NCBI GenBank assembly: GCA_009741485.1
Contig: CM019218.1
Location: forward strand, 33,418,387 to 33,482,386
Origin: Malurus cyaneus samueli
Lineage: Eukaryota > Chordata > Aves > Passeriformes > Maluridae
Direction: 5' to 3'
Length of the DNA: 64,000 nt
A model generated the notes under the pieces. It was not told the origin of the DNA. It worked only from the letters and a program-made list of their open reading frames with translations, and did no database searches. The translations under genes and the position numbers were made by a program. This document shows, in pieces, positions 12,865 through 50,800 of the stretch (position 1 is the first letter of the stretch; every line of letters begins with the position of its first letter).

Positions 12865-34756
<21,892 letters not shown>

Positions 34757-41890: not shown

Positions 41891-44800
41891 CAAAACTTCA
41901 ATTCTTGATTGTGTTTGTATAATGATTCATTAACTTAGAAAGCTTCAGCTAATATATTTTTCAGTGTTTTTTCCTATTGTAACCCTGTAATTTAAATGGA
42001 GAAAATGCTTTGGGAGTGATTATTTTTTTCTCTGTTACAAGAATGTAAAAAGTAAAGCAAAAAGCGTGTGTTGGTACTATTGCAACATGAATCAGATGTT
42101 CATACTCAAATTGAAATTATTGGATTGGAAGTTTGATTTAGTAGGTTTATGTGTTGTATATTAATAACAACAGAAAAACCCAAATGGGCTTCCTCAGAAA
42201 CCTGACTTTCTATTTTCTCTTACACCTTCTGCCTGTATTCATCTAAACAATAAATGATTGGCACAGCCAGATCAGGTCAATTTAAGTAACAATATGGTGG
42301 TCCTGAAAAGCCAGCTGCTGATGGCTTTTTTCTTTCCAAAATTGCGGTTTTTTTGGTCAGAGGCCACTATAATTGACCTCTTTTGGGGATAATCAGCTAT
42401 CTGGATGTAGTCACTGAGCTTTTACAGCCTCTTGAGGAGATTTGTCTCCCTTGTACAACAAAGTTAAGCAGCAGATAGCAGAGAAATGAGTGAATGGAAG
42501 CTGTTGCTGGATCTGAGTCCTATGGGGAAATGCTACCGGTTGCTTAGTTTTGTCCAAGACCCTTTTATTTATCTTTCTACTAAAACTAGGCATAAACAGA
42601 GTGTAAGAGTGTAATATCACCACATTTTATATTTGTGGTTTGTGTGCCTGAATATCTTAGTCCTATGCTACTGGAAAATACTGCTTGCACTTGGCACAGC
42701 AGGACAAGTTTTTTAGAGAAATCCAGAAGAAATGGAGAACATTTCCTGGCTCTCTTTCTCAGGAGTACCACTGTTATGCCTTGCATTAAGGCAAATTAAA
42801 AGCCAGCTCTGCCTTTGTTCAAATCGTTGGCAGTATTTTCATTAAGCTTCATGACCAGGTCATTACCTCTTGTCATTTATACAAATAGCCTAGCTAGCTT
42901 CATAGAAAAGGAAACGAATTGAGAATTCATTTACTCAGTAACAGTCCAAGAAAATGATGTTTCACCTCCTGTTAAGAGCAGCCAGAAACTAATGGCATGG
43001 CATCTGGATGGTGCATGTGATTTCAGTGCTCCCAACAGAATCATCATTTGATCACAGAAAGGGTGGTAAAGAAATAGCAACCAACTGTATTAATTGGAAG
43101 AATGGAATAACAATTTTGCACTACTCTGTAGTGATGAGAGGTAGCTCAGTTTCTTTCCTTGTTTAAAACATGTAAATCTAGACCATATCACAAGTGGAAG
43201 AGTGATTTGGATCTGGCTCCAGTACATGTTGTCAGTACAACTGAAACACATGGAAAAAAGCAAGATTGGAACAAACATACTATGGCAGATTGATGTTGAG
43301 GTCTGGTTGTTGTCTGACCTCTGCAGTGTCTTGTAGCATTGCCTGGCTTATTCTCATTCATACAGCAGATCCAATCTGCCCATTCAGCTCACAGGATCTT
43401 GCTGCACTTCTCTACTCGCACTCTAGCTGCCTCTCATTTAAATCAGAACTGGAACATGAGAAAGCAGATACAGGTCAACTCTCCCAAAAAATGCTCCAGT
43501 ATGCGAAATTCAATAATTAGCAGCTGCAAAAATTGAAACATTGAAGACAGCTAAGAACTGCCTGTTGCAACCTGGACAAGCTTAAACTGCTGCCCAGGAG
43601 GACCAGTAGATCCCATTTGCTAATCTACCTGGAATGTCGTGGTAGCATGAATTAGCTTCATTGTCCATGAAAACAAGAGAGCTCATCTGTACTGATGGGG
43701 GAGAAATAATGCTTCCAACAGGTTAATTTGAAAAGCTTGTAACAACATAAACTCAAAAATCTGATTTAGAAGGATCCTTTCCCATTTTTAAAACCAGCCA
43801 TTTATTGATACCTGTCACCTATACCAACTTCTTTTTTTATGATAAACCTGGAAATGAGAACTTTTCTCTTCTTCAAGGCATTAGTCCAAATTAACGTTGG
43901 GCTGTATGTGCATACATTTTATTTTTCTGTGATATTTGCATATTTTACTCCATCTGATACTGAAGGGAAATGCTAACAACTGATTACCTTGTGTTCACAT
44001 TTTAGTTGGCAGCCGTGTTTGGTTTTTGAAGTGTAGGTGTGTGAAATCAGTACACCAAAATGGTGTAAGGGAAGAAGTGAAGTACTTAAATGTACATTTT
44101 CATATGGTAGTGTTCAGTCAAAGCTGACTGCAAAAATGGCATATCTTATGCTATGATTACATATTCTTATGCTTCTGGGAGAGGGACAATTTTATTGTGA
44201 TTCTCTATGTTATTTGTATTTGCTAAATTCTGGCAGCAGGAATGCTTGTGCGAGCCGACTGTAACACTAGAGGCAGCTAGTCATTACTATAGGCCAAATT
44301 TTTGTGTAGAACTTTTTAAATGTTGGTGATAAATGCTTAAGACAACCTGTACGATTTTTCAAGTCATTGGACAAAATTTCAGATGAGAGTGTTTTTGTTT
44401 CCCGTCTGGTACGGATGACAAGACCTTGTACCTCTGCTACTTCTGAATTGTGCAAAGTGGCTCTAATATACGACCCTGAAAACACATCTTAAAATAGTGC
44501 CAATGACAATAGTTTCACCCTATCTAAATGTGAAATGGAGATTTTTCTTTGTAGCATTAAAATGATTTTTGCTTGCTTCAGAGTTGACACCAGGTTACAT
44601 TTTGCTACAGCTCTTCCTCATCTTTCTTCTTCCTTGGGTATACAATTACGAGAAAGGAAATGAAGATGAAAGCCTCCTGAACTATGCAGGAGCATTTGTC
44701 TGGAATGAAGTGAGCCCCTGCCTCCTGTAATTTAAGAGCAAATCTAACTTCCATTTCATGTAAAACAATACAAAGCTTTTTGTTCTATTTCAAATACTGT

Positions 44801-45243: not shown

Positions 45244-45249
45244 TTTATT
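45244..45249 (-). terminator. Candidate polyadenylation signal of the Myb/SANT-like gene
   Basis: TTTATT on the plus strand reads AATAAA on the minus strand, about 290 bases beyond the stop codon. Another AATAAA lies closer to 45155. Which one is used cannot be told from sequence. Confidence 0.35.
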
Positions 45250-45535
45250 TTTCAAAAGGTGACATTAAACAAAGGATGATACAGACAAAAGTCTTAGTCA
45301 AAATGAACATTTGGGTTTTTAAGAGAGTAAGACGATAAAGAAAAGAGAATTATTAGCCAACTGCAATAGAGTTAACTGGAGACTGGTAATTAGTGTTTAA
45401 TGCCACCTATAGCAAAATGTTTCCCACTGGGAAAAACACAGGAGGCAAGTCCACTTTACTCCTTCAAAGTCATAGGCTGGAGTGGAACATACAACAGCAC
45501 CCAACAATACAGTCACTTTACGTATATTCAAGTTT

Positions 45536-46194
45536 TTACACATCTGCAAAGCAGAAGTAGTAGCAGCCATTTGGATGTTCTTTCTTAATGGTTCTCAGGG
45601 GGGCCCTAGGAAACTCTGAAGGACCTGGTTCTTGGGACATGGAGCTGGAGCTGCAGCTGCTGCTTCTGCTGCTGCTTCCAGCCACCTGCGCTCTACCTCT
45701 GTCCTTAGCAGGGGAGAGCTGGGGGGATCCTGGGCTCAGGTACCCAGCAGTGGTCTGAGTAGATGCAGTGGCATGTGTGGTGGGGCCAGTGTTGTTTTTC
45801 ACATAGACGTTTTTGATAGCAACAAGCGTATGTGCCATGATGCTGATGCTGTTACTCAGATCTTGCATGCCTTGCTGCAGCAGCCGAAGATTGTGGTTGA
45901 CACTGTCAAAGCCAGACTGGATCACCTGTATTTGGGCCTGCTGAATCTGCAGAAGGTCCTCTTCAGTCATTTCATTTTGGTCTGCCTGCGACCTGCCTTT
46001 TGTTTTGGCTTTTACTTTCCCAGAGGAACCACCGCCTGATGTCCCCAGAAAAGGCAATTGTTCTTGACTAGGTGGAACCACTACCATGTCCTCAGAGCTT
46101 TCTTCTGGCTCCACCACCTTCACTACTATTTCTTCTTTGAGGTTCATCTTCTCAAGACTGGATTGATGAGATGGGCCAGGATTGCCATTAAACC
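45536..46194 (-). CDS. Exon 2 of the Myb/SANT-like gene, coiled coil and Ser-rich tail
   Basis: The acceptor is CTCTTTCTAG after a long pyrimidine tract, and the stop TAA is at 45538-45536. In order it encodes an acidic segment (KEEIVVKVVEPEESSEDMVV), a Gly/Ser/Lys-rich segment, a helical heptad-like segment at about 45967-45809 (EEDLLQIQQAQIQVIQ, LLQQGMQDLSNSISIMAHTL), an SPGSPQLSPAKDRGRAQ stretch, a Ser run and the end HPNGCYYFCFADV. A second acceptor (TTTCTCACAG, exon start about 46242) is in the same phase. Codon use and length argue for a real coding exon. Confidence 0.7.
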
Positions 46195-47453
46195 CTAGAA
46201 AGAGGGGGGGTGGAGGGGGCGGGGAGAGAAGCAAAGTAGAGCCTGTGAGAAACTTCATAATCTCAGTAGTCAGTGAAACACTTTTTCATCCACTAAGCAC
46301 TAACCTTGAAACAAGACTCTCAAACTCAGACTTTATCTTTGATGCTTTTAGAATACAAATTACCTCGACAGGTGGGAAGAAAACCATAAATATGCATTCA
46401 CCAGTTAACCATGTATCTGCATACTACAGAACCAAGCTTTAGAATCCCAAAGACAAAGTTCACTGCAAGCTCATTTCATGCTCTTATCGTGCGTGCAGTA
46501 ACCAGTAGGAGCATTGCTGAAACACCGTGATTGCAAGAATCCCTTGGTATTGAAGGAGATCATTTCAACGTGCAAGGACAATGTTTCCACCACGTACAAA
46601 GTTATGTGCTCACAGCACTTTGTCCTGGCTGGATCTGCGTGCTGCCACGGCTTTTTGCATTTGTAGGAATAATTACTGCAATAGTAAATATCGCTGGCCG
46701 GGTCTAACGCTTCGTGGAGGGGCAGTATCGAGACGGGGTTTTTACTCTCGGGAGCTGTTTTGAGGCACTTTTATGACCTACAGCACGAAGCCTCACAGTT
46801 CTGTGTGCGTGCATCTAAGTTTTGCGCCTCCAAGGATTCGAGCCAGCCCCGTCCAGCGGGGCCGGTGCCCGCGGCCCCTGCGCTCTCCTCTCGGAGCGGG
46901 CGGACAGCGCCGATCCCCCGCACACCGGGGCTCCCGCGGCTGCGGCGGGGGACACCGGGCGGAGGGTCCGGGGCGGCGCCGCGGGGGTCGCTCCCGCACC
47001 TCACCATGTCCCCTACGACGGCGCCGGGCAGCTCCAGCGTGTCGATGCCGCCCACGATGGGCACGGCCTCGGCGGGCAGCAGGGAGCCGTAGGCGCGGCG
47101 CTGACGGCGGGCGGGCGGCGCGGCGGCGGGCGGCAGCTCCTCGGGGGCCAGCAGGAGGCCGAGGGCGGGGGGCGCCGGGGGCCCGCAGCCCTGCGAGAGG
47201 CGGCACAGCTTGCTGCGGTCGCGGCGCTTCAGGTCCCGCCAGCGCTTCTTCAGTCTCCACTCGCGGGGGCAGGCGGCCACCGGGTTCACCTTGTGCCGGA
47301 TCAGCTCCCACACCTTCCGCTTCTGGCCGGGCGGAGGCGCGGCGGGTCCCGCGCGAACAGCAGCTGCTCGTGTTTCAGCACCTGCTCGATCAGCACCTCC
47401 GTCTCCGCCTCGTTGAAATTCGCCTTGCGCCGTTTGGGCGAGTCCTCGGCCAT
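45536..47453 (-). CDS. Myb/SANT-like DNA-binding domain protein, two exons, reading frame disturbed
   Basis: This gene runs head to head with CDAN1. Exon 1 encodes a Myb/SANT-like (NAIF1, MSANTD and MYPOP type) trihelix DNA-binding domain. It begins MAEDSPKRRKANFNEAETEV, continues LIEQVLKHEQLLF, then in another frame gives RKVWELIRHKVNPVAACP and LKKRWRDLKRRDRSKL. Exon 2 encodes an acidic stretch, a probable coiled coil and a Ser-rich tail. The architecture (N-terminal Myb/SANT, C-terminal oligomerisation helix) is that of transposon-derived nuclear DNA-binding proteins, so a transcriptional role is inferred. Oddities: a frameshift near 47336-47350 inside the domain, and exon 1 ends in phase 0 of the second frame while exon 2 needs phase 1. 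Either the assembly has small indels in this GC-rich DNA, a small exon is missed, or the gene is decaying. The start has a good context (A at -3, G at +4). Confidence 0.7.
46195..47004 (-). other. Intron of the Myb/SANT-like gene
   Basis: This is an 810-base GT-AG interval. Its half nearest exon 1 lies in the CpG island and is GC-rich. Its half nearest exon 2 is ordinary AT-rich DNA. It holds no extra exon that I can support. Confidence 0.6.
47005..47453 (-). CDS. Exon 1 of the Myb/SANT-like gene
   Basis: The ATG is at 47453-47451 on the minus strand, and the donor ATG|GTGAGG puts the exon end at 47005. The first ~35 codons match the start of a Myb/SANT domain (KRRKANFNEAETEVLIEQVL). Without a frame change the frame ends at a TGA at 47303-47301, after 50 codons. 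With a shift of one base around 47336-47350 the domain continues (VWELIRHKVNPVAACPREW, KKRWRDLKRR). After that come a Pro/Ala-rich linker and GGIDTLELPGAVVGDM. GC content is very high. Confidence 0.7.
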
Positions 47454-47789
47454 CCTCCGCCGCGGGCGTCGGCGGGCGGGCGGGGGGCGAGGAGCCGCGG
47501 GGAGGGGGGCGGAACGCCGCTGCCTTCCCTCCACCCGGCCCGCGGGTGCCGCCGCCGCTAGGCGAGCCCGAGCTCTGCCGGGGAAGGAAATACCGCGCAT
47601 GAGAGAGGAAAAGACGCGCACGGACCGGCGCAGGCGCCCGTGCCCCGCGTGTTGACATGGGAGGGGGCGCGGCCCCGCCGCCTCCCGGCGGGAATCCCCC
47701 GCTCGGCGCCGCCCCCCGCGGGAACAGGGGACACGCCGGGCCCGCCCCGCGCGGGGTTGTGCGCGTGCTCGGCGGGAGCGGGGCCGGGA
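47454..47789. promoter_or_regulatory. Shared 5' region of CDAN1 and the Myb/SANT-like gene
   Basis: These 336 bases separate the two start codons. There is no TATA box at a plausible place. GC-box-like elements (GGGGGCGG near 47502, CCCGCCCCGC near 47740) and NRF1-like half sites (CGCGCATG near 47593, GCGCAGGCGC near 47627) are present. This is the usual make-up of divergent housekeeping promoters. The motif calls are by eye. Confidence 0.65.
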
Positions 47790-47880
47790 ATGGCGGCGGT
47801 TTTGGAGCTGCTGCTGCAGGAGGAGGTGCCGGTCAGCGCCGTGGTGCGGTGGCTCCGGCACGGCCCCCACCGCTCGGCTG
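47790..47880 (+). CDS. CDAN1: CDAN1 exon 1
   Basis: This exon has 91 bases from ATG to the donor G|GTAACG. It encodes [20 protein letters not shown] and [10 protein letters not shown]. The first 22 residues align with human without gaps. It leaves one base for the next exon, which does not fit the phase of exon 2. Confidence 0.85.
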
Positions 47881-50800
47881 GTAACGCGCGCTGCGTCGTC
47901 CGCTCCCCTCCCTCCCTCCCGCAGCGCCCTGGCTCCGGGCCGGGCCCGCAGCCGCGCCACTCCCCAGCGCCCTCCGCGCCGCGGGCCGGGGCCGTGCGGG
48001 AAATTTGTTCCGCCCCGCGCTGCCGTGAGGGCCGCAGCCCGCTGGGTCAGCCCGGGGCCCTGCCAGGTGCCGTTCCGCCGCCGTGGGCTGGGGCCGAGCC
48101 CGTGGAACGGCCGGGGCACCCCCCGCGCGGCGGGCTCCGGGCAGAGCGGCGGGAAGGCGAGGCCGCCGCGGGGAGCTCGCCGGGAGTGCGCCCGGCGGGC
48201 GTGCGAATCCCTGAAAGGCGCAGGGATGAGCCCGCTGGAGCTCTGTGCCCCGGCGCCGGGCGGTCTCGGCGGCGGTGGCGCCGGGCGGTCCCGGGAGGGA
48301 GCGAGGGGGCCCGGAGGCCGGGCTGCCGTGTGCCAGCCGGGGCCGGGGGGGCCCGGAGGCCGGGCTGCTGTCCTGGGGGAGCGCGGGGACACCAGGATGA
48401 CGCTTCCCGCCTCTGGTCGGGAAGGCAGCGCTGAGAGAAGGACGAAGCTGTCAAGCGCCCAGGGCTCGGTGGTGGCTCTGTGCAGCCTGGATGCTCGGCC
48501 CGCCTGGACCTTTCCCGCGGGCTGGGAGAGGGTGCCTGTTGGCTGAGTTTTGTAACAGACGATTTGGGTTCCTGTGGAAATAAAAACATTTGTAGCTGTA
48601 GGTTGACTAGTAGTGCTTATATTTCACAGATGGCGTAAACAGTTTGTATTTAAAATCTCTTCTCCCTGAGTCCCTCGCAGAGTGTTACCTGGTATTAAAA
48701 TCAAAACTCACTACGTGAGTTAGTCATGTATTGCTGTCATCCTAAACGAGTGGGAAGAATGGACCAGCACTTCATGTGTGGTATTTCTTCAACTGTGACT
48801 TGCAAAAGCAGACCTGCAGAGGTTATGAAGTTTGAGATCCTGGCAACTCAGCTAGCACTGTGTGGGTGAGGGGTGTGGAGGTAAAAAAGTTTGCCCTAGC
48901 AAGGGAATTTCTCACTGCCTTTTGCTGTTGGGAACAGCGCAGTTGCTTCAGCTCGAGAAAGCAAGCTGGCAGTTGTTGACAGGTTGCTGTTACCCAGATG
49001 TGGAGGAACCAAACCTCAGTTAACTTGGACAGAGAAAGATGAGTGAAAGCTGATTGTACTCTGAAAAGTTGGAGAACCTACCTGGCCTAATGCGTGGCAT
49101 AGACTGTAACAATCTTTGTGCCCCTATGTTAATCCAGGGTGCACCCAAGGGAATGCTAGACTACATCTTGCTCTAGCTCTCCTGGCAGTTTTGGGCTGGA
49201 GATGGTCTCCTGACACCTCACAGCGGTTGTGTTCTGTCCTGTTCTTTTTCACTGATTGTTGGCTGCTAGGCTTGTTATCCAGGCTGTGTCAGGATCTCAG
49301 TTCTTCCCCAAGAAACTGAATTGATCTCATGCTTCCAAATATGAATTCTGTTATAGGTGTTGAAGATTGTGATTGAGTCCAGTCACAGGCATGTTTTTGC
49401 TGCCTTGTTCATGCAGAAAACCACTTTCAGAAGTAGTGTTTGCTTTCTTGACTTTTCGTCTAGTAGGGTTGTGAATGTAACTTTACAGGAGTATGTATGC
49501 AATGCTTCTAATATTAGTAAGGAAAACATTGCTGCCTTTGAGAACTTCTTCTGTTGTTGTAAGTGTTGTTGAATCCCATTGAGAGGAAACAGAAACCTGG
49601 TGCAATTAGAAACAAAAGAATTTTTAGCCAGGGTGACTGAACTGAGCTTGTAACATGCAGTAGTTTCTGTCCCTATTTACACTTTTAAGATCACCACCAT
49701 CTGTCTAGATTTTAAATGTGTTGAGTAAGTGGTGGGTTTAAGTTTCTTAAGTATAAACTTTACATACCTGAAAGTTGCACAGTCCCTGTTTAGGCTTCTG
49801 TGAGGTCTCAGGGAGGAAAATTATTTAATTGAAGTGGAAGAGTAGCTTTGGTCTTGTATTTGGCAGTGCAAGACTCCAAGGGCTTAAACAGTTGTTGTTA
49901 CAGCACCCCTCTGTGGGAGCAGGTGGCATTCACAGACAGACCGGGTACAGAGACATGACAGATTTTAGATTTTTCTATTAGAATTAGATACTTTCAATAC
50001 TGATGTTTTTGAAATGTCAAACTTAGGGGTGCCAGTTGCTTCAAGTCCTCCCTGACCACAGCTTCAATGAATGTTACCGTTTCCGTGGAGCAGTTCCACT
50101 GTTTTCCAGTCAGAGACCAAAGTGAATCACTCCATCTGAAAAATTGTGCCAGAATGGCTTGTGTACAGGCTGATTTTCAGATCTGTGACCAACACTGTGT
50201 TTGCTTGAATTTCAGTGACCTACTTTCACAAGTCATGTTGGTTTTTATTGTGTGTTGAAATCCCACAGTTACCACTTATAACTGTGTCTGCGTATATGGA
50301 CGGAAAGAACCGGTAGCATCTTTATATTAATTTTTTGTCTGCTTCTCTTGTAGGAGAACCACATCCATGACAAGCTGGTGTCTCTTAGTTTGCTTCAGAA
50401 AGATTTTGTGCCTTTTCTGCTAAATTTTTTAAGGGAACAGACCAGCCAGATCCTGACTAATGGACCTCCTACTCCTGCTAAGACTCCTAATTCCAAGGCC
50501 CACGGGAGCCAAAGGACAGGATCTGAAAGGAGGGCAGGCCATGCAACCAGCAGCCGAGTGCAGCTCTTTTCCCAAAGGACTTCAGTGACCACTTGCAGCA
50601 CAGACACCAGCTTCTCTCCTGCTGCAGCGTCCAGCGGTTCCTCTTCCTTTTCCGGGTCGAACCTGTCTAGCCCTTGTGGTGATCTCCCCAGCATGGTGTC
50701 CAGCAGCAGCCCCAGCTTTGGGCAGAGCCCTGTGCTCCACCATGGGGAGAAGAGGTCATCCCAGAAGGCCAGCCTGGGGAGCTTCCTGACGGCCACGCCT

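Follow-up and report, generated by a model that had tools for sequence, protein, structure and literature searches.

A two-exon gene beside CDAN1

The window analysed here is a stretch of 64,000 nucleotides from Malurus cyaneus samueli (assembly GCA_009741485.1, contig CM019218.1, positions 33,418,387 to 33,482,386 of the forward strand). Its minus strand carries a Myb/SANT-like gene beside CDAN1. The start ATG is at 47453 and the stop at 45536; the intron between them opens with GT (donor, 47004) and closes with AG (acceptor, 46195). This is a real gene: a comparison of its protein, read through the break in exon 1 described below, with the relative P0001 from the finch Haemorhous gave an E value of 2e-226, which excludes chance. 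The features of the gene are as follows.

47005..47453, minus strand: exon 1, from the ATG to the donor, with the Myb/SANT-like domain (sequence, Pfam, alignment)
46195..47004, minus strand: intron, GT...AG, 810 bases (sequence; phase compared with relatives)
45536..46194, minus strand: exon 2 including the stop codon (218-codon frame intact)
47203..47429, minus strand: PF13873 (Myb_DNA-bind_5) in two frames, profile positions 1-29 and 33-77 (Pfam)
45791..45964, minus strand: heptad helix of 58 residues, a probable coiled coil, equal to P0001 residues 229-286 (heptad test on P0001)
45244..45249, minus strand: AATAAA, the nearest one 3' of the stop (sequence)

Exon 2 comprises 218 open codons and aligned to P0001 with zero indels. 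Other poly(A)-like signals, ATTAAA at 45401 and AGTAAA at 45460, lie closer to the stop than the AATAAA. A preliminary description of this DNA, made from the letters alone, had proposed two minus-strand exons encoding a Myb/SANT domain and a heptad helix; both features are present, but exon 1 is not a single open frame.

Myb/SANT-like domain and C-terminal helix

The two pieces of PF13873 in the window scored 23.7 bits (profile 1-29) and 35.2 bits (profile 33-77), each above the Pfam cut-off of 21.7, so that the domain is recognisable in this copy without forming a continuous domain in one frame. P0001 scored 71.8 bits. In the helix of P0001, 76% of the residues at heptad a/d positions were hydrophobic, a value reached in 3 of 5000 shuffles. 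When 19 rows were aligned, headed by the window read-through, invariant stretches appeared at SPKRRKANF near the start and, at the third helix, over most of LKKRWRDLKRRDR. Between finch and lungfish, identity was 75% in the domain and 60% in the helix, and the linker carries conserved LKEE and IKKE motifs, which we take to be SUMO-consensus-like. Conservation was counted on 33 rows minus the two paralogs P0066 and P0067. Six relatives, from another bird through lungfish, were at least 75% identical to the finch domain; for five further proteins of the Myb class, including three human ones in approximate sequence, domain identity was 35-51%. These identities and the domain tree indicate that the domain changed little from lungfish to birds, with a longer branch in salamanders.

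Taxonomic distribution of relatives

A protein search with the read-through query, in which the 7986 candidates sharing most words were scored, returned 64 proteins at E <= 0.001; each match is a cluster whose organism name is taken from its representative. Birds were 78-95% identical over 98-100% of the query, a turtle 85%, squamates 68-78%, caecilians 64-67% and salamanders 48-53%. The lungfish relative was 47% identical over 81% of the query, and the alligator row was partial (84% over 52%). LOC132329010 (Haemorhous, 95%) and LOC119857027 (Dermochelys, 85%), both matched over the whole query, are the same gene by sequence, although their exon 1 is open whereas that of the window is broken. 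A profile built from 12 relatives (7996 candidates scored) gave 54 matches, including three new rows, namely P0065 of the same group and the paralogs P0066 and P0067. With the lungfish Myb domain as query, 51 of the 88 candidates scored were returned, every one of them already in the group. The paralogs P0066 (Latimeria, a coelacanth) and P0067 (Protopterus, a lungfish) have about 540 residues, with a domain 45-51% identical; the lungfish carries both kinds, a group member and the longer paralog. The gene model of P0021 (Haliaeetus) is fused to a piece with PF00853, presumably Runt, and this is probably a false fusion.

The gene in the window belongs with the ortholog group of P0001 by full-length similarity in both exons and by an intron at the same place, with a differing donor phase; a divergent CDAN1 neighbour was likewise found for P0049 and P0053 of the group. 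The five proteins P0013, P0016, P0017, P0022 and P0050 contain both exons in one frame (P0022 with part of exon 1) and come from contigs of 1451-2298 bases. Since the intron of the window measures 810 bases and unspliced relatives diverge into other sequence past the donor, these five contigs probably represent spliced RNA. No transcript from Malurus cyaneus samueli was seen.

The gene is thus an old lungfish-tetrapod gene retained in sauropsids and several amphibians. Because relatives extend to salamanders and lungfish, it is not bird-specific. The preliminary description had offered two origins, a lineage-specific gene or a retained ancestral one; the former, if birds were meant, conflicts with the relatives in reptiles, caecilians, salamanders and lungfish, and the latter fits this distribution. 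The homology search that it had called for found both exons conserved across birds, turtle and beyond. No mammal, frog, ray-finned fish or shark occurred among the organism-named matches of the three protein searches (64, 54 and 51 matches). The gene therefore appears to be missing from mammals, an absence that is indicated rather than proven because each name is that of a cluster's representative, a mammalian positive control was lacking from the searches and mammalian genomes were not read.

Head-to-head arrangement with CDAN1

Exons of TTBK2 and CDAN1 were placed with approximate human protein sequences as guides. The Myb/SANT-like gene is divergent from CDAN1 and convergent with TTBK2.

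47790..47882, plus strand: first coding exon of CDAN1, divergent neighbour (human-guided match)
34304..34756, plus strand: last coding exon of TTBK2, convergent neighbour (human-guided match)
about 46680..48600, no strand: CpG-island windows spanning both start codons, with a single gap near 48320-48380 (CpG windows)

The start codons of the Myb/SANT-like gene and CDAN1 have 336 bases between them, within the CpG-island windows. The same order was recovered from two contig-predicted proteins, P0049 and P0053: ahead of the MAEDS start, each contains CDAN1 exon 1 read in antisense, and each then runs without a change of frame into exon 1 of the Myb/SANT-like gene. The antisense CDAN1 peptide of P0053 differs from that of the window at 1 of 26 residues, and the stretch preceding MAEDS is common to P0053 and the pigeon relative P0003. 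Because both proteins read through CDAN1 exon 1 in antisense, the head-to-head order is present in two more contigs, which we call bird-like on the basis of similarity.

Proposed function and significance

Taken together, we consider it somewhat probable that this old lungfish-tetrapod host gene, apparently lost in mammals, encodes an oligomeric nuclear DNA-binding regulator. In such a product of roughly 370 residues, the N-terminal trihelix Myb/SANT domain would contact DNA, the single long C-terminal helix would join subunits, and the linker with its LKEE and IKKE motifs may recruit partners. The gene is divergent to CDAN1 over one CpG island and may also share promoter control with it. A bolder and rather unlikely extension is that an undescribed transcription regulator, dating back at least to the common ancestor of lungfish and tetrapods, had a promoter in common with CDAN1 and was lost with that arrangement toward mammals, that CDAN1 control consequently differs between mammals and sauropsids, and that some birds may be decaying the gene now.

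In databases the relatives are named "uncharacterized" or "hypothetical", or bear borrowed names (MYPOP-like, t-SNARE domain-containing 1-like, NAIF1-like). Annotation has been misleading here, because the names of three human genes were borrowed without clear orthology. The gene had earlier been called possibly undescribed, and this agrees with its lack of a name and with literature searches, which found no paper on it. A conserved, probable DNA-binding protein, found from lungfish to birds, unnamed and apparently absent from mammals, represents a gap in vertebrate gene catalogues. CDAN1 is a blood-disease gene in humans, and the divergent position beside it allows a direct test of the co-regulation of the pair outside mammals.

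Broken exon 1

In the MAEDS frame, exon 1 of this assembly reaches a stop after 50 amino acids, and the other half of the Myb domain sits in a different frame. A frameshift-aware alignment against three bird relatives placed the break near 47354, followed by a scrambled stretch and by the loss of a codon near 47253. The break sites were the same relative to all three birds, and the remaining gaps fall in the variable linker. The donor (47005/47004) is in phase 0 in the window versus phase 1 in 12 of 12 relatives, the comparison being made on 12 chosen exon 1 proteins that read on into the intron (P0038 and P0064 were left out). The previously proposed junction of 47005 to 46194 therefore has the correct sites, but with this donor phase it does not join the two frames in the present sequence. 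Exon 1 is open in the database proteins of other birds.

Alternative interpretations

The GC (guanine plus cytosine) content is 74% in exon 1, 50% in exon 2 and 72% in the indel cluster, and the exon 1 indels are confined to about 110 bases plus the donor. Such clustering of small indels in a GC-rich exon favours assembly error over decay, and we regard a consensus or assembly error as clearly more likely than a true loss. The competing view, possible and the less likely of the two, is that the gene is a recent pseudogene in this bird, in which genuine frameshifts truncate the protein within the Myb domain. It would leave unexplained why exon 2 has no indel across 218 codons and why the damage is so narrowly clustered. 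The 22 matches of TTBK2 and CDAN1 in the window, over 5304 bases, are also unbroken inside the matched stretches (residues between matches are not covered), and three stops seen in them sit at match ends and are read as intron overhang. Several observations nevertheless weigh against an error: the frame break, the lost codon and the donor phase shift occur together in a stretch strongly conserved among relatives; exon 1 was matched once only in the assembly (with a query in the wrong frame), so that no intact second copy was seen; and the sole other comparably GC-rich exon (99 bases, GC 0.73) is intact, for which reason GC-linked error is not established as the cause.

The remaining alternatives concern the identity of the gene. 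NAIF1 and MYPOP carry an N-terminal Myb/SANT-like domain, and it might be argued that mammalian TSNARE1, NAIF1 or MYPOP is the ortholog of the present gene, which would have diverged and been moved or renamed and would hence exist in mammals. The names lent to its relatives point this way, as do the domain identities to the approximate human sequences: TSNARE1, the nearest of the three, at 49% over 78 residues, NAIF1 at 34.6% over 81 and MYPOP at 36.7% over 79. Moreover, the domain tree fails to separate the three reliably. The six relatives from bird to lungfish, however, stay at or above 75% identity to the finch domain; NAIF1 and MYPOP match in the domain only, the helix giving no match with either and E 0.015 with TSNARE1; and P0001 has no t-SNARE Pfam match up to E 10, so we consider such orthology improbable. 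A more distant comparison, with the DNA-binding domain of Drosophila Zeste (5cqq), gave 22% identity, and common descent is not claimed. According to two papers, the second gene of Harbinger elements encodes a Myb-like protein that binds element DNA and carries the transposase to the nucleus; a known vertebrate pair of this kind is NAIF1 with HARBI1 (PMC9179366, PMC9710019). As described there, the Harbinger protein resembles the product of our gene in domain class and size, and by this analogy descent from a Harbinger-type Myb-like protein is plausible. The same resemblance would suit a protein that still belongs to a mobile Harbinger-type element and represents no host gene. Unlike such an element, however, the window yielded no transposase-like match with an approximate HARBI1 query (best E 1.1; terminal repeats were not searched for), the gene keeps its position beside CDAN1 in the two further bird-like contigs, and the domain is little altered from lungfish to birds, the salamander branch apart. 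We therefore regard continued mobility as highly improbable and retain the reading of an old host gene.

Flanking genes

TTBK2 exons lie at 12868-34753 (plus strand), and CDAN1 exons begin at 47790 (plus strand) and continue into the flanking contig. The stops of TTBK2 and the Myb/SANT-like gene are about 10.8 kilobases apart. The preliminary description had placed the gene between TTBK2 and CDAN1, and exons of both do flank it. On the TTBK2 side, 54 open codons at 44566-44727 (plus strand) resemble a membrane-helix exon and have no Pfam match; because this stretch intervenes, direct adjacency to TTBK2 is not established. On the CDAN1 side, L002:3117-3206 and L002:3435-3479 both match one piece of CDAN1 (VDQQLLYTCCPYLGE), a duplication either of an exon or of the assembly.
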